Source: Chloroflexota bacterium (GTDB lineage Bacteria > Chloroflexota > Anaerolineae > Promineifilales > Promineifilaceae). From it: DNA of 64,000 nucleotides. The stretch is taken from positions 124,001 to 188,000 of the forward strand of contig JABFFZ010000001.1 in assembly GCA_013112725.1 (NCBI GenBank). Direction: 5' to 3'. The notes under the pieces were generated by a model. It saw only the letters and a program-made list of their open reading frames with translations, did no database searches and was not told where the DNA came from. Both the position numbers and the translations under genes were made by a program. Numbering within the stretch: position 1 is the first letter of the stretch; each line of letters starts with the position of its first letter. Positions 7,269 to 63,063 of this stretch are shown here, piece after piece.

Positions 7269-8080
7269 ATGAAAAAATTTACCCTTGTGTTGATTATGTT
7301 GCTGCTGGCTTTATTGTTGGCGGCGTGTAGTGGGACGGTCGGTTCAGAGCCAACGGCCGTGCCCGCTGCTGAAGAAGCCCCGCCCCCATCACCGGCATCC
7401 TCTGGCTCTGGCAGGAATTCCAGGACACGGCCGGAGAAAATGACATCACCGTAGACAATCCGGCCAATTACAACATCGTCTTCAACGAAGATGGCACGTA
7501 CAGTGGTCAGGCTGATTGCAACCGCATTGCCGGCAGCTACACATTGGATGGCGCGTCACTGACCATCCAACCCGGCATTTCCACGATGGCCATGTGCCCC
7601 GAAGGTTCGCTGGATGCGCAGTTCAACATGTTCTTGAGCAATGTGCGTACCTTTGTCATGGATGGGGATAATCTGGTGATGAATCTGTTTGCCGACGCGG
7701 GCAACATGGTCTTTGGCAATGGCGGCCCGTCCCCGGTGAATATGGCCGAAGTGACCGGCACGGTTTCTTACCTGGTGCGGATCGCCCTGCCGGATGACGC
7801 CAACTTGCTGGTGCAGCTTCAAGATACTTCGCTGGCCGATGCCCCGGCCGTGATTATGGGCGAATACAATGCGCCCACCAATGGGGTGCAGGCGCCGCTG
7901 CCCTTTGCCATTCCTTATGATCCGGCAGCCATTGAAGACAACCGCACCTATACCCTATCGGCGCGTATCACCGATGGGGTGGGTAATTTGCTGTTTATCA
8001 ATGACACATCCATTCCCGTAATCACCGGTGGCAACCCGACGACGGATGTGGAAGTGCTGGTGGTGCAGGTGAATCCGTAA
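7269..8080 (+). pseudogene. META-domain plus YbaY-like lipoprotein, one frameshift
   Basis: It starts as a lipoprotein: MKKFTLVLIMLLLALLLAAC with lipobox LAAC, then a Pro/Ala-rich linker. The frame breaks in a C run near 7380-7390. In the shifted frame a META/HslJ-like domain follows (LWLWQEFQDTAGEND, DGTYSGQADCNRIAGSYTLD, LTIQPGISTMAMCPEGSLD), then a YbaY-type domain (VTGTVSYLVRIALPDDANLL, PLPFAIPYDPAAIEDNRTYT). The full stretch is one base short of 271 codons. It would be an exported outer-face protein, perhaps binding small ligands. Homopolymer slippage, phase variation or a sequencing error are all possible; otherwise the coding quality is intact to the end, so decay would be recent. Confidence 0.75.
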
Positions 8081-8120
8081 TCGGTAAACGGTAATCGGTG
8101 AACGGTTATCGGTGAATGAG

Positions 8121-8415: not shown

Positions 8416-10559
8416 TTCTTCCATATCCATACCCGGTTGCTGTGGTAGGTGGATTGCCCGGCCATGTCGCCTAGAGCGTCGGAGGTGGTGTAGTTGACGT
8501 GCCCACCTTCCAGCGCACTCCACCGCCCTTTGGGGGAAGCGAGCACGCCAGGGCGGATGCCGTCGGTGAGGATGGCTTTGAGGGTGCAGGCGCCACGGCC
8601 GTTGCCCACCACCACCCAGTCACCATGCGCAATTCCGCGTGCGGCCGCGTCGGCCGGATGAATCTCCACAAACGGCTCCCCCTCCCGCGCCCGCAAATCC
8701 GGCTGCCCGGCAAAGGTGCTGCTGGTGAAGTGGTGGGCCGCGCCGGTGATGAGCCAAAGGGGGGCGTGATGCGTGATGCGTGAGCCGTTATCCGTAATCG
8801 GTAACCGGTAATCGGCGGGTGCAGCATCCGCAATCGGTGGTTGATCATTGGTAATTGGCAATTGACCATTGACCATTTTCCTGCCGTCGTCTTGTTTGTC
8901 TGTCCAGCCGGGCAGGGGGTCGAGGCCCAGGTCGGCCAGGGTTTGGCAGTAGAGTTCCACTTTGCCGCTGGGGGTGGGAAAACGGCCGTCCCCAAATGGC
9001 ACACTCTCTTCATGTTTTAGCTCAATTGAATGGGCCGCTTGCAGTTGCGGCAGGGTGATGCCCTTGAGGGCGGGGTTGTGTACGGCCGTAGCTGCTAACA
9101 ACTCCTCTATCACCTCATCCACCTCCTGATGCAGCCAGGGTTCGGTGAAGCCCATTTCTGTGGCCAACAATTGCATCACATCCCAGTTGCTTTTGCACTC
9201 GGCCAATGGCGGGATGGCGGGCGCATTATAGGCCAGCATCCAGGTGCCGTACCCTTTGTGCAGGTCGGCCTGTTCCAGTTGGGAGGTGGCGGGCAGGACA
9301 ATGTCGGCGTGTACGGCCGTGTCCGTCATAAACAACTCATGCACCACCGTAAATAAGTCTTCTCGCTTTAACCCTTCCACAATCAGCCCGGCATTGGGCG
9401 ACGATGTCGCCGGATTTGCGCCAAACACAAAGAGGGATTGGATGGGCGGGTCGTTCACTTCGCCGGTCAGGGCTGCGCCCAGCCGGTTCATATTCACCCA
9501 GCGACCCGGCGGTGGGCATTCGGCCCACTTGTGTACTGCTTCCCCGTCCCACTGCAAATAGCCGCTGGTAGAGTACATCAGGCCGCCCCCACGACGGCCG
9601 TATTGCCCCGTGATTGCCGGTAAAGCGCAAATCGCCCGCACGGTCTGCCCGCCGTTCGGATTGCGCTGCAACCCGTCGGCGATTTTGATCAGTCCGGGAC
9701 GAGTCGTGCCATACAATCTCGCCAATCTCTCAATCTCCCCAATCTCCAGTCCCGTTATCGCCGCCACCCGCTCCGGCGGATATTCGCCCAGCCGCGCCCG
9801 CAGTCCCGGCCAACCTACGCTATGCATTGCCAGCCATGTCTCATCCTGCCAGCCTTCACGGACGATGATGTGCGCCAGCCCCAACGCCAACGCGCCATCG
9901 CTGCCCGGCTGCGGGGCGATGTGCCAGTCGGCCTGTTTGGCCGTGCGGGTGCGGCGGGGGTCAATGACCACCAGTTGTGTGCCGTTTTTGCGGGCATCGG
10001 CCAGATGGGGCATGAAGTGGGGGGCGGTGCTGACCGGGTTGTGACCCCAGACAATGACGACCTGGCTGTGCTGCACCTCGTCGTAGCGGGGACTGCGCCG
10101 TTTGCCCAGGGTCATTTCCACCGCCATTTCTGCTGCCGCGCCGCAGATGGAACGTTCCAATTGACTGGCGCCCAACCGATTCCAAAAACGGCCGCTGCTC
10201 ACACCCATTTGCACCGCGCCCAATGTACCGCTGTAGCTGTAGGGCAAAATGGCTTCCGCCCCATAGGCGGCGATGATGGCCCGCCACCGTTCGCCAATTT
10301 CGGCAATGGCCTCCTCCCAGGAGATACGTTGCCATTGCCCGCCGCCCTTTGGCCCCACGCGCCGCAGGGGGTGTTGCAGCCGGTCGGGATGATAGACGTG
10401 TTGGAGGTACGGCCGTACCTTGGCACATAACCAGCCCTGGGTGACAGGATGGTCGTGGTCGGCATAGAATTTCACTGCCTTCCCGTCGGCCACTTCCGTC
10501 ACAAACCCACACGCATCGGGACAATCATGGGGGCATACGCCGTAAACTTTTGTGGTCAT
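8412..10559 (-). CDS. molybdopterin-dependent oxidoreductase (DMSO reductase superfamily)
   Basis: A 715-residue protein. The N terminus has the [4Fe-4S] binding motif C9-PHD-C13-PDA-C17 with a fourth cysteine in GWLCAK near residue 46. Then come molybdopterin-guanine-dinucleotide binding stretches (VVIVWGHNPVSTAPH, VVIDPRRTRTAKQADW, LFVFGANPATSSPNAG) and the C-terminal dinucleotide domain (LITGAAHHFTSSTFAG, EIHPADAAARGIAHGDWVVV). The region near the metal ligand is ERSICGAAAEMA. No Tat signal is seen, so it is likely cytoplasmic. The substrate is unknown; the CPHDCPDAC subgroup is broadly annotated as BisC-like. Residues about 560-597 (8768-8878) are a repeat-derived insert. It sits between nuoM and nuoN without an obvious partner subunit. 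Confidence 0.85.
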   Translation of the reverse strand: MTTKVYGVCPHDCPDACGFVTEVADGKAVKFYADHDHPVTQGWLCAKVRPYLQHVYHPDRLQHPLRRVGPKGGGQWQRISWEEAIAEIGERWRAIIAAYGAEAILPYSYSGTLGAVQMGVSSGRFWNRLGASQLERSICGAAAEMAVEMTLGKRRSPRYDEVQHSQVVIVWGHNPVSTAPHFMPHLADARKNGTQLVVIDPRRTRTAKQADWHIAPQPGSDGALALGLAHIIVREGWQDETWLAMHSVGWPGLRARLGEYPPERVAAITGLEIGEIERLARLYGTTRPGLIKIADGLQRNPNGGQTVRAICALPAITGQYGRRGGGLMYSTSGYLQWDGEAVHKWAECPPPGRWVNMNRLGAALTGEVNDPPIQSLFVFGANPATSSPNAGLIVEGLKREDLFTVVHELFMTDTAVHADIVLPATSQLEQADLHKGYGTWMLAYNAPAIPPLAECKSNWDVMQLLATEMGFTEPWLHQEVDEVIEELLAATAVHNPALKGITLPQLQAAHSIELKHEESVPFGDGRFPTPSGKVELYCQTLADLGLDPLPGWTDKQDDGRKMVNGQLPITNDQPPIADAAPADYRLPITDNGSRITHHAPLWLITGAAHHFTSSTFAGQPDLRAREGEPFVEIHPADAAARGIAHGDWVVVGNGRGACTLKAILTDGIRPGVLASPKGRWSALEGGHVNYTTSDALGDMAGQSTYHSNRVWIWKK
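8768..8878. repeat. spacer-type repeat inserted in frame inside the oxidoreductase gene
   Basis: The + strand reads GCGTGATGCGTGAGCCGTTA, then TCCGTAATCGGTAACCGG, then words of the type TCATTGGTAATTGGCAATTG. These are the same words that fill intergenic spacers elsewhere. They are translated on the minus strand as a low-complexity segment (ITNDQPPIADA, YRLPITDNGSRITHH) between the two C-terminal folds of the enzyme. The frame is kept. Confidence 0.8.
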
Positions 10560-53346: not shown

Positions 53347-53448
53347 GTGATTCAGCAATCCGTAACCCGTGCTACGCGGTCGGATTACGGTTCACGGATT
53401 ACGGGTCACGGGTCACGGGTCACGGATTACGGATTACGGTTTACGCTT
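53347..53448. repeat. GGATTACGG/GGGTCACGG spacer repeats
   Basis: AATCCGTAACCCGTGCTACG at the left, then a run of GGATTACGGTTCACGG, ATTACGGGTCACGGG, TCACGGGTCACGG, ATTACGGATTACGGTTTACG. Partly self-complementary. An open frame runs through it and would add 34 low-complexity residues to the next protein; I exclude them. Confidence 0.8.
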
Positions 53449-56400
53449 ATGACAACTGATGCCGAGCGCATGACGGAAGAGCAAGAAGCAGGGGAGGACA
53501 CGGCCGTAGCCCCTCCCCCACCGCCTCCCGAAAACAACATACCTGCGGCTGAACCCGCCCCGCGTTCTTTTAGTTGGGAAAGTGTGGCCATCCTCCTTGC
53601 CCTGGTGGTATTGCTCATGGGCGCCTACTTCCGTTTTACCGGCCTCAATTGGGACGGCAGCTATCATTTGCACCCGGACGAACGTTTCCTGACCATTGTG
53701 GCCACCCAACTGCAACCCGTCTCTTCACTCACCAGCTATCTGCGCACTTCCGAATCAGCGCTTAACCCGTACAACCAGGGGCAGGGCTTTTACGTTTACG
53801 GCAATTTCCCCATGACCGTCACCCGCTATGTGGCGGAACTGATTACCCGCGCCTGCACCACCCTGGCCCAAAACAACCCCGCCGAACCGCCCCCCTGCCC
53901 TTACGTCTTCACCGCGTATGATGGTGTGCATTTGCTCGGCCGTTTCCTGTCCGGGCTGGTGGATCTCATCTCTATCTTTTTTACCTTCCTCATGGGGCGG
54001 CGGCTGTATGGCTGGAAAGCGGGTGTGCTGGCGGCGCTGCTGCTGGCATTGGCCGTCATGCCCATCCAGCAGTCGCACTTTTTCACCATGGACAATTGGG
54101 CCGCCGCTCTGACAACAGTAACGCTGTACACGGCCGTGCGCGCCGCCAGTCTTGGTGACAAAGCAGCCACGCCGCGCCTGCATTGGTACGCCCTCTTTGG
54201 CCTCTTCTTCGGGTTGGCCGCCGCTTCCCGCATCAACATCGCGCCGCTGGCCCTCATGGTCAACGTGGCCGCCGTCATCTGGCTGGTGCAACGCGGCCAC
54301 GGTTGGGACAGCCTGCTCAAAACAGAGCGTGGTCACGCCGATATCCAGCGCGTGATCCTGGGGGTGCTGCTGGCGGCCGTTCTCTCCATTGTCACCTTCC
54401 GCCTGGCCATGCCCTACGCCTTTGCCGACGCCACCATCATCCGCGAGCAAATGTTGGCCGAAACCGGGTTAGAGCCAGGCGCCCTGCGCACGACATTGGG
54501 GTCCGTTTTTGGCTTCAATCCCCAGTGGCGCAACAACATGGCCGAAATTCAACGGCTGCAAGAGCCAGACGCCTCCTTCCCACCCGCCCTGCAATGGACA
54601 AACCGCGCCCCCATCCTCTTCCCGCTGACGAACATGGTGCTGTATGGCATGGGGCTGACGGCGGCGATTGCCAGTTGGGTAGGCTTTTTCTGGGCGCTGT
54701 GGCGCATTTTGCGGGGGCGGCCTGACTGGGTGGTTCACGCTATTCCGGTGGTGTGGACGGGGTTGTATTTCCTCTTTATGGGCACCCGTTGGGTCAAATC
54801 CATCCGCTACTTCCTGCCCATTTACCCTACGCTGTTCCTGCTGGGGGCGTGGGCGCTGTGGATGGTGTGGCAGATGGCCGCGCAACGCGACCATGACCGG
54901 GGCCAATTTTTCCGGCGGGCCTTAGCCGCCGGCCTGATTTTGCTCACCGTTCTCCCCAGTTTCCTGTGGGCCAATGCCTTCTTGCAAATTTACCGGCAGC
55001 CCGTTACCCGCGTGGCCGCGTCCCCCTGGATGTTTGACAATATCCCCACCGGGGCGACGCTGCTCTATGAAACGGCCGAAGGCCCGCAAGAGCTGCACCT
55101 GCCGCTGAAATGGTTTGAATTTGTGCCCGGCGGCCCCACCCTGTTGCTCGGTTTTACGCTGCCGGAAGATGGCACGGTCACGGCCGTGCGCTTCAACTAT
55201 TTGCAGCTACCCGACGGCGCCCCGCCCCAAACCCACACATTCGCCGCCAATCTGCCTTCTGTGGGCGGTGACACGGTGACAACGGATGTGTCCATCAGCG
55301 GTGAGCGCGCTCCCGCCCTGGTTGACCTGCCGGATATGCCCATTGCCGGCCAGACCGCGCAGCAGTTACAGGTGCAACTGCTGTCGAATGGGCCTGTTCT
55401 GGCCGATACCAGCCGTTTCCTCACCGAACATTGGGATGATTTGTTGCCGGTGCCGGTAGACGGCCGTTACCCCTTTGGCAGCTACTACACCGAAGTGCAA
55501 AACAGCCAGCGCCCCGTCACCAATCCGGACAGCGAGATCAAACGGGAAGAGGTGGTGGCCTGGCTGGACGAGGCCGACTATGTTGTCCTCAGCAGCCAGC
55601 GCGCCGTCTGGCATCTGCCCCGCCTGCCCCTCACCTACCCGCTCATGATCCGCTACTACGAAGCGTTGTTCAACGGCGAATTGGGTTTTGAATTGGCGCA
55701 TCAGGAACACGCCAACCTGCACATTGGCCCGCTGTACATCAGTGACACCGCCGGTAAGATTGGCTGGGGCGCGCCGCCGAACGTGGGTTGGCCGCCGCCC
55801 GGCGACCTGGCGGCCGAAGAAGCGTTCAGCGTTTACGACCATCCGCCGGTCTGGATATTCAAAAAGACGGCCGATTACGACCGGGACAACGTGGTGCGAT
55901 TGTTGGGCGCGGTTGACCTGACCCAACAACTATTCCAAACGCCAGGCCAGGCCACACGTACCCCCAATGCCCTCTTACTCAGCCCGGTGGTATTGGCCGT
56001 GCAGCGGACCAATGGCACGTTCAGCGAGATTTTCAACCTGGACGGTGTGTTGAACCAAAATTCGACATTGGCCATGATGGTCTGGTGGCTGGCGGTGCTG
56101 TTGTTGGGTTGGCTGGCGTTTCCGGTTACGGCCGTCGTCCTGCGCGGCCTGCCCTCCAAAGGCTACCTTTTTGCCCGTGTCCTGGGAATGCTGCTCGTCT
56201 CCTACTTTGGCTGGCTGCTGGCGAGTTTTGACATCCTGCCCAACACCGCCGGGACGCTCTGGTTGGGTGTGCTGCTATTAGGTATTGCCAATCTGCTCAT
56301 TTTCCTGCGCCGCCGCGCCACCATCACCGGTTGGGTGCGGCAAAATATAACCTACATTCTGACGGTCGAGGCCATTGCTCTGGCGTTGTTCCTGATCGCC

Positions 56401-58587
56401 ATTTTTATCCGCCTGGGCAACCCTGACCTGTGGGACGTGATTTGGGGCGGCGAAAAACCGATGGATCTGACGTATTTCACGGCCGTGCTCAAATCCACCA
56501 CCTTCCCGCCCTATGACCCCTGGTTTTCCGGGGGCTACCTCAATTACTACTACTACGGCTTTGTGTTTGTCGGTGTGCTGCCCAAACTGCTGGGCATCAT
56601 GCCCACCCTCGCCTACAACCTGATACTGCCCATGCTTTTCAGCTTCACCGGCATGGGCGCATTTGCCATTGCGTATGACCTGGTGGAATTTCAACGCAAA
56701 GGTGCAAAGGAGCAAAGTGGGCAAAGAAGAGAAGAAGCAGAGAATTCCCTCACCCCGGCGTCTTCGCCGCTCTCACCTGCTCACTCCGGCGTCTTCGCCG
56801 CCGTCACCCCCTCCCTGGCCGCCGGTCTCATCGCTGCTGCCCTGGCCGTGCTGCTGGGCAACCTGGCGCAGGTAGGGGTGATTACCAATGCCTGGTACCG
56901 GGCGGGCAACCCGGCGTTGGAGGAGATTGTGCCGGTGGTGGGCACGGCCGTGCGCACCATCGAAGGTGGCGTCAGTCTCATCGGCGAAAAGACGGCGCCC
57001 ATTTACCCGGGCGACTGGTTCTGGACCGCCTCCCGCGCCATCAACGCCGACCCCGGTGAGGCGGGGCCAATTACCGAGTTTCCCTTTTTCACCTTCCTCT
57101 ATGGCGACTTACACGCCCACATGATCAGCCTGCCGCTGATGCTGTTGGCGCTGGCCTGGGCGGCGGGATTGGCCTTGCAGCTGTCCAAAACAAGAGTTGA
57201 CAAATCTGGGAGATTTGTCAACTCTGACTGGTGGGAAACGGCCGTGCAGTGGCTCATCGGTGGCATCATCTTTGGCGTGTTTCAGGCGGTCAACAGTTGG
57301 GACTTCCCCACGTTCCTGGTGATCGGCGCGTTGGCCGTCTTTTTCTATGGCTACCAGATGCACGGGCAAAAATTCAGCCTGCCGATGTTGGGCACGGCCG
57401 TGATGCAAATTTTCCTGCTCTGGGCGCTGGCTTTCCTCTTGTACCTCCCCTTTAGCAATCATTTTGCCGCCGGCTTCAATTCGGTGGCCTTGTGGGATGG
57501 TTCCCAGACCTACCTCAGCCGCTACCTGATCATGTGGGGGCTGTTCCTCTTTTTTATCGTCGGCTACCTGTTCATTGAGTTCCGCGATTGGGCCAAAAGC
57601 TGGACGTATGAGGGGATGCGGGCGATGGAGATGGCGGCGATCCCGTTGTTGGTCATGGCCGTGTTCTACGTCCTGCTGCTGTTGATTTTGTGGCGGATGC
57701 AATACTGGGTGGCCCCGGTGGTGCTGACGCTGACGCTGGCGGCCGGCCTGCTGGGCCTGCGCCATCAACTGCCGCCCGCCCGGCGCATCGTGCTCATCCT
57801 GATCGCCTCGGCGCTAGGACTGACGCTGTTCGTCGAATTTTTTGTAGTAGAAGGTACCATTGGCCGCATGAACACGGTGTTTAAGGTGTATATGCAGGTG
57901 TGGTTGATGATGAGCGTGGTGGGGGGCGTCACGGCCGTGTGGGGCTGGCAGCGTATCAAAAAGGCCCCCACCGGCAAAATCGTCTGGGCCTCGGCGCTGG
58001 CCGTGCTGGTCATGGCTGCCGCCCTGTACCCCATCCTGGCGACCCGCGCCAAATGGGACATCCGCATGAGCAAAGACGCGCCCCACACCCTGAACGGTAT
58101 GGACTTCATGCCCTATGTCACCTACCAGGAAAACGGCCAGACTGTGCCCCTGGGGTATGACCACGACGCCATCCTGTGGATTCAGCGCCACCTGCCCGGC
58201 TCCCCCCTCATCGCCGAAGGGTACAGCGACAACTACTACCGCTCCATCACCAACCGCGTGGCCATGTACACCGGCCTGCCCAACATCATCGGCTGGAGCG
58301 GCCACCAGCGGCAGCAGCGGGCCGCCTTGCCCGGCGGCATGATTGACATCCGTATCCAGGACGTCCACCGGCTCTACAACACCACCAGCATCGCCGAAGC
58401 CCTGAGCATCATCCAGAAATACGGCGTGGAATATATTTATGTGGGGCAGTTGGAATGGGTCTTGTATGACCCGCAGGGTTTGCTGAAATTTGACCAGATG
58501 GCCGACGCCGGTCTGCTGGAAGAAGTTTACCGCAATGACGGCACCAGCATTTATCGCGTCATGGACGCCTCGGTGAATACACAATAA
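53449..58587 (+). CDS. fused glycosyltransferase and DUF2298 (YYY) membrane protein
   Basis: About 1,712 residues, two membrane modules. Residues 40-540: a PMT/ArnT-like glycosyltransferase with the acidic loop [18 protein letters not shown], and helices such as [16 protein letters not shown] and [16 protein letters not shown]. Residues about 540-740: an extracytoplasmic beta-rich part. The second half is a DUF2298 module (named for clustered tyrosines): [29 protein letters not shown], then [20 protein letters not shown], and [15 protein letters not shown] to the end. The DUF2298 family is shared by Chloroflexi and Archaea and is thought to act on lipid-linked sugars. Two repeat inserts lie in frame at 56695-56790 and 57193-57225. 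ATG 53449 follows the spacer repeats. Fusion of the two modules is unusual. Confidence 0.85.
56695..56790 (+). repeat. low-complexity repeat text in frame inside the DUF2298 gene
   Basis: CGCAAAGGTGCAAAGGAGC, GGGCAAAGAAGAGAAGAAGC, then CACCCCGGCGTCTTCGCCGC and CTCACTCCGGCGTCTTCGCC. Translated as a charged, then Pro/Ser-rich, segment ([18 protein letters not shown]) in a loop between membrane helices. The related gene at 60.4 kb carries a similar insert at a similar site (61437-61510). Confidence 0.75.
57193..57225. repeat. nested palindromic inverted repeat inside coding sequence
   Basis: AGAGTTGACAAATCT, GGG, then an exact inverted copy. The 33 bp keep the reading frame and encode [11 protein letters not shown]. 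The same class of 15-bp arm is found in spacers. Confidence 0.85.
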
Positions 58588-58590
58588 TCC

Positions 58591-58645
58591 GTTTGTAGTA
58601 GGCGATTTATCGCCGTTAAAAGGCGATAAATCGCCTACTACAAAC
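58591..58645. repeat. 24-bp perfect hairpin, GTTTGTAGTAGGCGAT family, copy 2
   Basis: Arms at 58591-58614 and 58622-58645 are perfect inverted copies around a 7-base loop (GTTAAAA). The same hairpin with two changes is at 17695-17754. It follows the DUF2298 gene and may be its terminator; the methyltransferase starts 10 bp later. Confidence 0.9.
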
Positions 58646-59657: not shown

Positions 59658-60422
59658 ATGGAACAACTCAAGGCAACGCTCAACCAGTTGATAGAACGAT
59701 TGAACGAACCGGAACTTTTCCGGGAACGGTTAGAAACGTTGATCTCTGTTTATCCCTTCAATGAGTACGAATTTATTATCTCCACGCTTTTAGGTGCGGA
59801 TATTTTGTCGCTAGACGAGTATTATGAATTGCGGGACGCCTATCTGGATCGCAACCTGTATCTTTATCTGTTCGAGATTAGCGCACCTCGTAACTTTGGC
59901 GAGCAGTGGGCGCAAGGGCATTTGAAAACATTGATACCGGATTTGCAACGGCCGACTAAAAAAGTTGATCTAGACTATTCCGGTCAATACGACTTCTGGT
60001 TGGAAACGGCCGTAGGCCCTATCCGCATTGAGGTCAAAGCCTCACGCGCCGTTGATTTTGACAGTGACGAGCCATTGTATGTCAAAGCTCTGTCTGTCAA
60101 TTCCAGCAAACGCTTCGACATGAATTTTCAACAGGTAAAACCACGCTATTGTGATGTTTTTATCTGGATTGGCGTCTGGCGTGACCCGATTCGCTATTGG
60201 GTTTTGAGTTCAGATGAAGTAGCAAACAAGCGCTACTACTCAGCGGGACAACATCGGGGAAATATAGGCGAAGGCCAATTACATCTGAAAGATGACAACA
60301 TCAGAGATTTTGAAAAGTACAAGATGACTGCGCGGGAATTGTTTGATGCTATCCTGGCTGCATTTAGACGCCAATTTCCATCTGGCAATCAAACTGGGGA
60401 GGCCGTTCATGACGCCGTTTGA
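59658..60422 (+). CDS. type II restriction endonuclease, PD-(D/E)xK type
   Basis: A 254-residue protein. The nuclease core is visible at VDLDYSGQYDFWLETAVG followed by PIRIEVKASRAVD: Asp, then Glu-x-Lys, with further support from YCDVFIWIGVWRD. The N-terminal 80 residues are helical (NQLIERLNEPELFRERLETL). Position after a DNA methylase and short length support a type II enzyme, though I recognise no named family. It overlaps the downstream DUF2298 gene by 14 nt, so the RM module has inserted tightly into the cluster. Confidence 0.75.
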   Translation: MEQLKATLNQLIERLNEPELFRERLETLISVYPFNEYEFIISTLLGADILSLDEYYELRDAYLDRNLYLYLFEISAPRNFGEQWAQGHLKTLIPDLQRPTKKVDLDYSGQYDFWLETAVGPIRIEVKASRAVDFDSDEPLYVKALSVNSSKRFDMNFQQVKPRYCDVFIWIGVWRDPIRYWVLSSDEVANKRYYSAGQHRGNIGEGQLHLKDDNIRDFEKYKMTARELFDAILAAFRRQFPSGNQTGEAVHDAV

Positions 60423-63063
60423 TGAAATCTGGATGGTCATTCGCTGGTGGTTGGCGCTGGTGGTGGTGGGCACGGCCGTGACCCCCCTCACCCTCCATCT
60501 GCTCCATCGCCTGCCCGACCGGGGCTACGCCTTCGCCAAGTTGTTGGGGTTGCTGCTCACCAGCTACCTTTTCTGGCTGTTGGGCAGCCTGGGCATTGTG
60601 GGCAACAACCTGGGTGGCATTCTGGTGGGGCTGGTGGCAGTGGTGGTGCTTTCCATTTGGGTCTGGCAGCAGGGGCGGGAAGAGATCGTGGGTTGGCTGC
60701 GGCCTAACTGGCGCTATGTGCTGCTGGTGGAACTGCTCTTCCTGGTTGTTTTCCTGCTGTGGGTCTGGGTGCGGGCGCAAAATCCGGCCATTGTGGCTAC
60801 CGAGAAGCCGATGGATTTTGCTTTTTTGAACGCTATCGGCCGCAGCCCCTCTTTCCCGCCGCTCGACCCCTGGCTTTCCGGCTATGCCATTAGCTACTAC
60901 TACTTTGGGTATCTGATGCAATCCGTGTTGGCGCGTCTGACGGCCGTGCCCGAACCCTACGCCTTCAATTTAGCCATTGCCTGGCTGGTAGCAGGTACGG
61001 CCGTCGGTGCGTTTGGCCTGGTTTACAATCTGGTAGCCGCTTATGGGCCACAGGCCAGACGAGCCGCCATGGCCCTGGGGCTGGTGGCGGCGGTGGCTAT
61101 TCCCATTGCCGGAAATCTGGAAATTGTGCTGGAAGCGGCGCATGGGCATGGCTACGGTTCACCGCAGTTTTGGATCTGGCTGGATGTGCGCGACCTGAGC
61201 ACAGCGCCCGACCCCACCACGCCGCCGCGTTATGAAAATGCCTTCTGGTGGTGGTGGCGCTCCTCCCGTCCCATCAACGAATATAGCCTGAGCGGGCAGC
61301 GGATTGATGGTCTGGAACCAATTGTGGAGTTCCCCGCCTTCAGTTTTGTCCTGGGTGACCTGCACCCGCATGTGATGGCGCTGCCGTTTGCCTTCTTGAG
61401 TTTGGGCGTGGCGCTGGCCTGGTTCCTGAAAGATTTTAGCGCAGAGACGCAAAGACGCAGAGAAGAAGAGCAAGATGCGGAAGCTGTGAAGTCCTTCGAC
61501 ACGCTCAGGACGGGGTCTGTGGATTCATTCTTAGCGCCGTTAACCGGATTGGTACAGGAGGTGGGGACGCCGTTGTGGCTGCTCACGGCCGTCATCCTCG
61601 GCGGCCTTTCGTTCCTGAATACCTGGGATGTGTTGATTCATCTGTTTGTGGTGTTGGGGGCGTTTACACTGGCGCAATGGCGTAGCTATGGTTGGTCGAA
61701 ACAGATTTTAACCAGGACATTGTTAATGGCGCTGCTACTGGTGATTCCGGCGGTGCTGCTCTATTTACCGTTCTACTTTGGCTTTCGTTCCCAGGCAGGC
61801 GCGCCCTTTTTGCTGCCCATGCTGAACCGCCCCACGCGGCTGGCGCAATTTCTGATCATTTTTGGCCTGCCATTGGGTACGATTACCATTTTGCTGTTGG
61901 TGTTCGCCATCAAACAGCGGTTCCGGCAGTGGAAAGTGGGGGTGATCACGGCCGTGACCCTCTTGCTGTCCCTCTTCCTGTTGGCGCTGCTCTTTAGCTG
62001 GATTGTGGCCGCCTCGTCGGAAGGGGCGGGCCGGGTGATCAACCTGGCGGCGGAATTGGGCATCCCCCTGGCGGTGCGGCCCGAAGGTTTAGCGCCAGGG
62101 TGGGCGGGCAAGGCCGTGTTGGCCATCCTGCCCACCTACCTGCAAGCCCGTCTGGCCTTGCCCGCCCTCACCCTGCTCCTGGCGGGTCTCATGGCTCTGG
62201 CGGTGATGGTTTTAGTTGAGCAGGTGAGCAGGTGGGAGGGTGAGCAGGTGATCGCCCACTCTCCCCCTCACCCCCTCACCCCTTCACCCCTCCCCTTCGC
62301 CCTGCTGCTCATCATCACCGGCATTTTGCTGACGTTGGGGCCGGAATTTTTGTATTTGCGGGACAATTTTGGGGTGCGGCTGAATACCATTTTTAAATTT
62401 TATTACCAGGCGTGGGCGTTGTTTGGCGTGGCCGCTATCTTTGGGCTGTATGCTCTGTGGCGGGCTACGGCCGGCGTGGCCCGGATTGTGCCCGCCTTGA
62501 CGGCCGCCGGGTATGGGCTGGCGCTGCTGCTGTCGCTGCTGTTTCCGTTTTACGCCATCCAATCCCGCGCGGTGGAATTTCGCGGGCGGGCGGATGCCGA
62601 ATTTCGCCAGCCGCCCACGCTAAACGGGCTGGCGGCGATGCAGAACTTTAACTTTGATGAATACGCCGCCATTCAATGGCTGCGCGAGAATGTAGACGGT
62701 GCGCCCGTTATTTTGGAGGCGGTAGGCGGGCAGTATTCGGAGTACGGCCGTGTCTCCGCCAGCACCGGCCTGCCCACGCTGCTCGGTTGGGCCGGGCACG
62801 AATACCAGTGGCGCGGCAGTTCCACAACCGAACCGGCCCTGCGTGACCCGGCCGTGCGTGACATCTACACCGCCGCCGCCTGGGAAAATAGCAACGCTGC
62901 CCAACTGCTCGACCGGTACGGCGTGGAACTGATCTACCTGGGTAATCTGGAGCGCAGCGCCTATGGCCTGCTTGGCCCCGCCCTGCAAAAGTTCAGCGAC
63001 CGGCTGGAAGTGGCGTACCAGAATAATTCCGTTACCATTTATCGTTGGCTGCCGGAAGAGTAA
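60409..63063 (+). CDS. DUF2298 (YYY) family membrane protein
   Basis: About 884 residues, similar to the second half of the fused protein upstream; both share VTPLTLHLLHRLPDRGYAFA-like starts, PWLSGYAISYYYFGYLMQSV (tyrosine cluster) and EFPAFSFVLGDLHPHVMALP. Membrane helices throughout; a soluble C-terminal part (YAAIQWLRENVDGAPVILEA, EYGRVSASTGLPTLLGWAGH, NNSVTIYRWLPEE). Probably a glycosyltransferase or lipid-linked sugar enzyme. I start at ATG 60409 (MTPFDEIWM), not the open frame at 60343. Repeat inserts occur at 61437-61510 and 62218-62290. Confidence 0.85.
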   Translation: MTPFDEIWMVIRWWLALVVVGTAVTPLTLHLLHRLPDRGYAFAKLLGLLLTSYLFWLLGSLGIVGNNLGGILVGLVAVVVLSIWVWQQGREEIVGWLRPNWRYVLLVELLFLVVFLLWVWVRAQNPAIVATEKPMDFAFLNAIGRSPSFPPLDPWLSGYAISYYYFGYLMQSVLARLTAVPEPYAFNLAIAWLVAGTAVGAFGLVYNLVAAYGPQARRAAMALGLVAAVAIPIAGNLEIVLEAAHGHGYGSPQFWIWLDVRDLSTAPDPTTPPRYENAFWWWWRSSRPINEYSLSGQRIDGLEPIVEFPAFSFVLGDLHPHVMALPFAFLSLGVALAWFLKDFSAETQRRREEEQDAEAVKSFDTLRTGSVDSFLAPLTGLVQEVGTPLWLLTAVILGGLSFLNTWDVLIHLFVVLGAFTLAQWRSYGWSKQILTRTLLMALLLVIPAVLLYLPFYFGFRSQAGAPFLLPMLNRPTRLAQFLIIFGLPLGTITILLLVFAIKQRFRQWKVGVITAVTLLLSLFLLALLFSWIVAASSEGAGRVINLAAELGIPLAVRPEGLAPGWAGKAVLAILPTYLQARLALPALTLLLAGLMALAVMVLVEQVSRWEGEQVIAHSPPHPLTPSPLPFALLLIITGILLTLGPEFLYLRDNFGVRLNTIFKFYYQAWALFGVAAIFGLYALWRATAGVARIVPALTAAGYGLALLLSLLFPFYAIQSRAVEFRGRADAEFRQPPTLNGLAAMQNFNFDEYAAIQWLRENVDGAPVILEAVGGQYSEYGRVSASTGLPTLLGWAGHEYQWRGSSTTEPALRDPAVRDIYTAAAWENSNAAQLLDRYGVELIYLGNLERSAYGLLGPALQKFSDRLEVAYQNNSVTIYRWLPEE
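61437..61530 (+). repeat. CGCAGAGACGCAAAGACG insert in frame
   Basis: GCGCAGAGACGCAAAGACGC, AGAGAAGAAGAGCAAGATGC, then GTCCTTCGACACGCTCAGGA. The last word resembles CCTTCGACAAGCTCAGGGC at 31.8 kb. Translated as SAETQRRREEEQDAEAVK and FDTLRTGS between two membrane segments. Confidence 0.75.
62218..62290 (+). repeat. GTGAGCAGGTG / CCCCTCACC insert in frame
   Basis: GAGCAGGTGAGCAGGTGGG, AGGGTGAGCAGGTGATCGCC, then CACTCTCCCCCTCACCCC, CTCACCCCTTCACCCC. Partly inverted words, translated as EQVSRWEGEQV and AHSPPHPLTPSPLP between helices. Confidence 0.7.

Follow-up and report, generated by a model that had tools for sequence, protein, structure and literature searches.

In-frame segments of spacer-type words in variable loops of conserved genes of a Chloroflexota bacterium

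Introduction

Three genes in a 64,000-nt stretch of DNA from a Chloroflexota bacterium (GenBank contig JABFFZ010000001.1, positions 124,001 to 188,000; hereafter the window), one encoding a molybdopterin oxidoreductase and two encoding DUF2298 proteins, contain five segments built from short repeated words of the kind found between genes, and the question is how such DNA came to lie within them. An earlier note on this DNA proposed that the process that builds spacers also strikes genes, and that its products survive where loops allow it. Spacers have no reading frame, and it is therefore hard to separate a general mutational process from a retained function there. Genes filter the same mutational output and keep a record of what passes, and the question becomes testable by comparing what arrives in spacers with what survives in loops. 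Inserts of this type would also provide a route by which enzymes acquire new loop peptides, and they explain why predicted proteins contain unusual low-complexity peptides (LPITDYR, HASRITH, SEQLAVS).

Methods

The sample comprised 1.26 Mb of the 5.51 Mb genome (23 %), window included, in which 1073 genes were predicted using a simple hexamer model. Segments were compared by blastn with 150,790 nt of spacers from this 23 % of the genome, counting pieces at E<=0.1, and coding DNA and dinucleotide-shuffled spacers, each in the same quantity, served as controls. Spacer words were defined as words at least 8 times denser in spacers, and an island as at least 24 nt covered by them. Orthologues were gathered from 52 genomes of the family, representing 22 genera.

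Results

Five in-frame segments in three genes

The segments and their host genes are listed in Table 1. All five are in frame and fit the coordinates given in the earlier note well. They are stop-free, and 57193-57225 coincides exactly with a hairpin. The Pfam domains of the oxidoreductase are Molybdopterin, Molydop_binding and Molybdop_Fe4S4. When the two DUF2298 paralogues were aligned, the loops at 57193 and 61437 proved to be one position. The inverted arms of 62216-62292 (GGTGGGAGGGTGAG and CTCACCCCCTCACC) reach an inverted-repeat score of 8, under the threshold of 10, and the same site in sister species L036 scores 15. The spacer array included for comparison consists of the same words and has the stop codon of the upstream gene at its start.

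Table 1. Host genes, in-frame segments and a spacer array in the window
Feature	Position	Strand	Domains or evidence
Molybdopterin oxidoreductase host gene, 715 aa	8412..10559	-	Pfam PF00384, PF01568, PF04879
DUF2298 protein 1 host gene	53347..58587	+	Pfam PF10060, residues 950-1521
DUF2298 protein 2 host gene	60409..63063	+	Pfam PF10060, residues 50-672
Heptamer-word segment (NGQLPITNDQPPIADAAPADYRLPITDNGSRITHH) in the oxidoreductase	8766..8885	-	59 spacer-piece matches; loop-length variation
Segment in DUF2298 protein 1	56690..56810	+	3 spacer-piece matches, best 42 bits
Perfect hairpin, 15+3+15 nt, in DUF2298 protein 1	57193..57225	+	Inverted-repeat score 15
Segment FSAETQRRREEEQDAEAVKSFDTLRTGSVDSF in DUF2298 protein 2	61437..61530	+	Dispersed families; paralogue alignment
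Segment EQVSRWEGEQVIAHSPPHPLTPSP in DUF2298 protein 2, two octamer-word arms	62216..62292	+	5 spacer-piece matches
Spacer array of AATCGGT words, for comparison	8068..8116	+	Tandem repeat finder; sequence

Three further repeats were seen in the window. A heptamer array (53381-53445) sits at the extreme 5' start of the long DUF2298 frame and, as sister species vary there, a later ATG is probably the true start. A spacer hairpin, TTTGTAGTAGGCGATTTATCGCC..GGCGATAAATCGCCTACTACAAA, lies directly 3' of DUF2298 protein 1 (58590-58645), and words of its family were found in up to 9 spacer pieces in a 464 kb sample. The palindromic octamer ACGGCCGT, which we take to be comparable to a HIP1-type word, is by impression very frequent in both genes and spacers across the whole window.

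Relationship to the words found in spacers

The earlier note described all of the segments as made of the same words as spacers, and this holds to differing degrees. In the blastn comparison, 8766-8885 matched 59 spacer pieces, 62216-62292 matched five and 56690-56810 matched three, the best of these at 42 bits compared to 24 in shuffled spacers; the agreement is strong for the first and fair for the other two. A set of 200 random coding 100-mers gave a mean of 0.5 spacer matches and a maximum of 28. A single piece was matched by 57190-57226 and none by 61437-61530 in the 23 % spacer sample, and for these two the claim failed this test and stands only via dispersed families. A whole-genome pattern search revealed that 61437-61530 contains TCCTTCGACACGCTCAGGAC, from a dispersed family; the TCCTTCGACANGCTCAGGAC family pattern has 10 matches in this genome and was found in 20 of the 52 genomes, and the reversed-pattern control gave 0 here. 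The same segment contains an array of GACGCARAG; this pattern is matched 14 times here, counting overlapping matches within one array separately, and is present in 29 of the 52 genomes (reversed control, 2 here). The core of the hairpin, TTGACAAATCT..AGATTTGTCAA, occurs at two places in the genome, the segment being one, and in 13 of the 52 genomes.

In the sample, 3984 12-mers were present in at least three pieces of spacers of up to 1.5 kb, compared to 1297-1375 in five equal draws of coding DNA. Spacers of the same genome were not consistently the closest match to a loop, though these samples were small.

Word islands in other genes of this genome

Spacer words account for 19.0 % of the spacer sequence and 0.48 % of coding interiors, and they form 39 islands in 34 of the 1073 predicted genes in the 1.26 Mb sample. 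When the words were taken from one half of the contigs and the genes from the other, 22 of 522 and 13 of 442 genes were found, that is 35 of 964, and a control dictionary built from coding DNA covered just 1.3-1.4 % of spacer. Hence, the claim that genes are struck extends far past the three genes originally named. Pfam searches of 18 of the 34 hosts identified a family in 17, and these were diverse; the hosts include ABC transporters, an AMP-ligase, MutS, MoeA, aconitase X, a tRNA-queuosine mannosyltransferase, an amidohydrolase, a hydantoinase and others. In an ABC transporter, seven seven-residue units of the SEQLAVS type occupy a position at which outgroups have just a few residues, e.g. 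PGSENGI, and in the alignment with relatives its nearest relative has six units and is 21 nt shorter. The AMP-ligase includes GDWRLEIRDSISNLQSLISQSP here and, in another genus (L340), NQLSVISNQPIHNSQFTIHNSQF at the same position. The word insert in the mismatch-repair protein MutS (L123:10165-12774, +) is QLAVSSEQLSSHQLPAPTHQSPISNLQSLISN, in the domain III region.

Words were also seen at gene boundaries. The stop codon lies fully within a spacer word in 175 of the 1073 genes of the 1.26 Mb sample, compared to 4 when the codon 20 positions earlier is scored, and 22 start codons are within words. Many C-termini seem to be defined by words.

Variability of the loops among relatives

Among the orthologues from the 52 genomes, all five sites are loops of variable length. 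The oxidoreductase loop is 50 residues long here; its length is 57, 45, 35 and 24 residues among the sister species and 22-30 residues in the six other genera compared. In one sister species it is made from another word type, WNYELGIRNYEPLTDNG, and in a different genus (L007) it contains NGQWLMVNSQLSTDAPFIIHHSSF. The four DUF2298 sites all behave in the same way. At one of them, different species have EIGDWRLEIRDSLPNLQSPISNLH, DKVTRWPGDKVTE, TPSPRHLVTPSPRH and PSTSSGADSSTSSK, and at 56690-56810 the relatives have other word types and hairpins. Aligned members of genus g22 have short, plain loops.

The earlier note had named identical segments in homologues from distant species as evidence that would count against it, and distant homologues do not have them: in the most distant members of the family the loops are short and plain, and in other genera the same loops have other words. 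The segments are not unique insertions, however, as occupied sites are common to the sister species. The presence of occupied sites in separate sister-species assemblies also excludes a chimeric assembly as the cause.

The length of the DUF2298 loops rises with the density of words in the genome, word-rich genomes having longer loops. The correlation (rho) was 0.63 for 39 genomes, 0.68 for 19 genera and 0.52 for the 34 genomes outside this genus, with the words picked from this genome and with 13 of the 52 genomes either having no measurable loop pairs or lying outside the table. Word matches differ sharply within some genera, with 8 in G001 and 315-682 in its genus mates, and 5 in G019 compared to 680 in G018 of the same genus, and the word-making process may switch on and off within genera.

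Arrays, hairpins and the stop-codon filter

The inserts take two forms, namely arrays of 7-mers or 8-mers oriented so as to be free of stops, and hairpins whose arms consist of words. Reversal closes all three frames in 23 of the 39 islands, compared to 4.5 % of coding windows taken at random. Words that contain stops on one strand therefore occur in the open orientation, and words that are open on both strands can occur as hairpins. The earlier note was right about the in-frame repeats but had overlooked both the inverted repeats and this orientation filter.

An inverted-repeat score of at least 10 was reached by 37 of 169 orthologous loops at seven sites, and by 29 of 1690 windows from the same genes; seven short ABC loops were excluded from this count and loops from related species are not independent, which makes the nominal p-value too small. 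Of 300 spacer windows, 16.7 % reached this score, compared to 1 % of 600 coding windows. For the 39 islands, the mean score was not above that of coding windows (p 0.95) and only the tail was raised, with 6 of the 39 at 10 or more.

One site, the loop at 57193-57225, shows an exchange of stems. Here it is AGAGTTGACAAATCT-GGG-AGATTTGTCAACTCT, in G003, G004 and G005 it is AGACCTGACAGGTCT-NNN-AGACCTGTCAGGTCT, and in G002 it is AGACATCCGATTTC...GAAATCGGATGTCT, giving three distinct hairpins among five sister species. Between the first two stem types, which are represented by four sequences, 11 pairs are constant, 4 have changed on both sides and 0 on one side. All three types have dispersed relatives. 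In the sample, AGACCTG hairpins occur 15 times in spacers and 3 times within predicted genes (at a gene end in two cases), and CATCCGATTT occurs 22 times in spacers and 3 times within genes; TTGACAAATCT is also found elsewhere. The exchange of stems is more simply explained by replacement with another family or by a template switch than by four separate compensated mutations.

Position of the segments in the proteins

Evidence for a location in loops comes from alignment with solved structures for the oxidoreductase and MutS, and from hydropathy for the DUF2298 proteins. The oxidoreductase insert falls between the regions that align with acetylene hydratase (query 553 to 596, chain 578 to 591), and the MutS insert fills a gap in the alignment with a solved MutS. 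The DUF2298 segments are hydrophilic and flanked by hydrophobic runs, the segment at 57193 being moderate (rank 192 of 1701). Overall, the islands are shifted towards hydrophilic residues relative to random coding windows (mean -0.45 vs 0.0, p 5e-4). Predicted folds were too poor to place loops, at a pLDDT of 33.8 for the oxidoreductase (single sequence) and 36.0 for DUF2298 protein 2 (two sequences).

Differences between two close genomes

When the genome sampled here (G000) was compared with G004, some aligned spacers differed by one heptamer (69 and 76 nt, 19 and 26 nt, and 50 and 43 nt), and others had gained or lost hairpins. In an amidohydrolase gene the difference was 21 nt of the same words. 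Indels in multiples of three made up 11 of 15 well-flanked cases in genes and 5 of 14 in spacers, a survey too small and noisy for a contrast between 7-nt and 21-nt steps. One G000 spacer (C10, 33467-33773) includes a stretch with a word hairpin and with CCCATTTGT on both sides, and G004 has a single copy and no hairpin. The flanking copies are either a target duplication or the sign of a deletion between short repeats.

A word array found in several phyla

At least 113 stretches in the genome collection contain the array GGTAATCGGTAATCGGTAATCGG, compared to approximately 0.01 expected in random sequence by our own arithmetic. By their record titles, the matches listed include Chloroflexi, Cyanobacteria, Bacteroidetes, Verrucomicrobia, Acidobacteriota, Planctomycetota, Elusimicrobia, Proteobacteria, Actinobacteria, Spirochaetes and others. 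Of the 113 matches listed, 11 lie deep within a long open frame, and all 11 are in the stop-free direction, as required. Random positions passed the same open-frame test in 526 of 1130 cases and so GGTAATCGGTAATCGGTAATCGG avoids genes. Six of the 11 frames were searched in Pfam and all six contain a domain. CarA of an unclassified bacterium (L297) has approximately 36 residues of the IHRLPITDYRLPITDYRS type in place of two in E. coli CarA, and FolC and a PyrK-like protein of Elusimicrobia have shorter ones.

Discussion

Origin of the segments

With moderate confidence, we conclude that the segments are spacer-type DNA that arose within genes by the mutational process that fills spacers, the relationship that the earlier note had proposed. 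What the comparisons show directly are the words common to genes and spacers, the variation among orthologues, the short loops of distant homologues, the stop-codon filter, the surplus of inverted repeats and the exchange of stems at one site. Slippage would lengthen tandem runs of 7-8 nt words, fold-back template switching would make and perfect a second arm, and copying from dispersed copies would bring in the same words, all three operating regardless of genes. Selection in genes would then retain those products that keep the frame, are stop-free in that orientation and fall in a tolerant loop or linker, and such loops would turn into lasting sites where words are lengthened, shortened and swapped. 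That related species have differing inserts at the same places suggests that a mutational process reshapes genes at any position where the protein can accommodate the change. From these comparisons we infer both the molecular process and that the proteins tolerate rather than use the inserts; on the other side, two of the five segments had no clear match in the spacer sample, the closest spacers were not consistently those of the loop's own genome, the indel survey was small and noisy, the islands showed a raised tail but no raised mean of inverted-repeat scores, target-site or enzyme evidence was not found and the mutation itself was deduced rather than observed.

In a wider form, to which we give only tentative and rather doubtful standing, the writing of hairpins and heptamers by template switching and copying from dispersed copies would be bacteria-wide, rewriting spacers and permissive loops alike. 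It would draw on a small set of words common to different phyla, and loops of essential enzymes would serve as landing sites at which sister species exchange whole hairpins.

It is unlikely that the inserts are instead copies of mobile palindromic elements (similar to RPEs, REPs or MITEs) that are moved by a transposase in trans and happen to be open in frame. Such elements would account for the palindromic families dispersed in spacers and found once in a gene interior, and for the G000 spacer insertion between two copies of CCCATTTGT where G004 has one, but the inserts have neither a single consensus nor a fixed length, many are plain heptamer arrays without inverted arms, and the stems at the 57193-57225 site lack a GTAG or CGTC tag. 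Y1 transposases were found in 48 of the 52 genomes and correlate weakly with word density (rho 0.27, p 0.05), but they are also present in word-poor genomes, at 0.35 per Mb compared to 0.52 in word-rich ones.

Whether the hairpins are mRNA or DNA structures under selection for a function such as pausing or mRNA stability, and have paired stems for that reason, also has to be asked. We consider this improbable. Hairpins are missing from 132 of the 169 occupied loops, heptamer arrays fill the same kind of site, the host genes are unrelated in function and the inserts are absent from distant orthologues, and these points stand against the perfect stems with two-sided changes at 57193-57225 (four sequences) and the recurrence of inverted repeats at the same loops across genera.

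Ordinary drift of hydrophilic, low-complexity loops that resemble spacers by composition alone is largely refuted and very improbable because, even if loop length varies in every protein family, acidic or basic runs such as RRREEE could arise by drift and two of the segments failed to match the spacer sample, exact 12-mers are shared with the spacers of held-out contigs and agreement with spacers is far above that with shuffled ones, unrelated genes share the same words, loop length tracks the genome-wide density of words and a 23-nt array is common to several phyla.

Comparison with known systems

The mutational reading favoured here can be set beside several described systems. The Rickettsia palindromic elements (RPEs) are also repeat DNA found in frame in many unrelated genes and outside genes, and are approximately 150 bp long, fall into families and each encode a conserved peptide (PMC10969869). 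In-frame insertion in unrelated genes was found here too, in 34 of 1073 genes, with diverse Pfam families in 17 of the 18 hosts searched. Unlike RPEs, the inserts are 33-120 nt in length, consist of 7-8 nt words, and are exchanged at one loop between sister species; words and lengths differ at a single site, without a conserved consensus or peptide. As to palindromic structure, 37 of the 169 loops and 6 of the 39 islands reached a score of 10, the rest being below it.

Intragenic REPs of the GTAG and CGTC families are likewise short palindromes found mostly in spacers, with some in frame in genes. Their hosts include repair genes and they often provide a stop codon (PMC3733652). In contrast to REPs, many inserts here are one-sided word arrays. 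The Y1 (RAYT) transposases associated with REPs are present in 48 of the 52 genomes and track word density weakly, which is no convincing link. The REP tag is absent, as the stems at the 57193-57225 site in the five sister species start with AGAG or AGAC and have no adjacent GTAG or CGTC.

The TAACTGA repeats are heptamer arrays common to distant phyla, as here. That system is a single heptamer that is mostly intergenic, with few copies in ORFs, these being in the stop-free orientation only, except at gene ends, and mostly at the ends of proteins or in hypothetical proteins (PMC4679880). Tandem arrays with a 7-nt period, mostly between genes, were also found here, but in contrast to that system the words are many, the inserts lie in internal loops of conserved enzymes and turn over among sister species, and hairpins occur as well. 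Peptides of the LSVIS type, seen in L340 and L311, hint at relatives of the TAACTGA repeats.

The coding palindromes of Nematomorpha mitochondria and template-switch hairpins are likewise inverted repeats within coding genes whose arms stay identical, and template switching has been proposed for them (PMC6649704, PMC8794818, PMC8604942). Those repeats overlap conserved protein sequence, whereas those here are extra segments made of dispersed words. Arms that changed together were found at one site, in four sequences, and replacement of one element by another would look alike. PARCELs share with the inserts a palindromic repeat coding DNA that is patchily distributed across distant microbes but have a defined 25-residue motif arrayed in ORFs without an assigned function (PMC2996958), in contrast to short variable inserts in conserved enzymes.

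Our search of open-licence papers found no account of word inserts in Chloroflexota, and searches of the open-licence literature for the exact peptide and DNA words found no related account. As the inserts lack the defining consensus of RPEs and the stems at 57193-57225 lack the defining tag of REPs, we regard arrays and word-built hairpins that turn over at fixed loops of conserved enzymes as a new combination.
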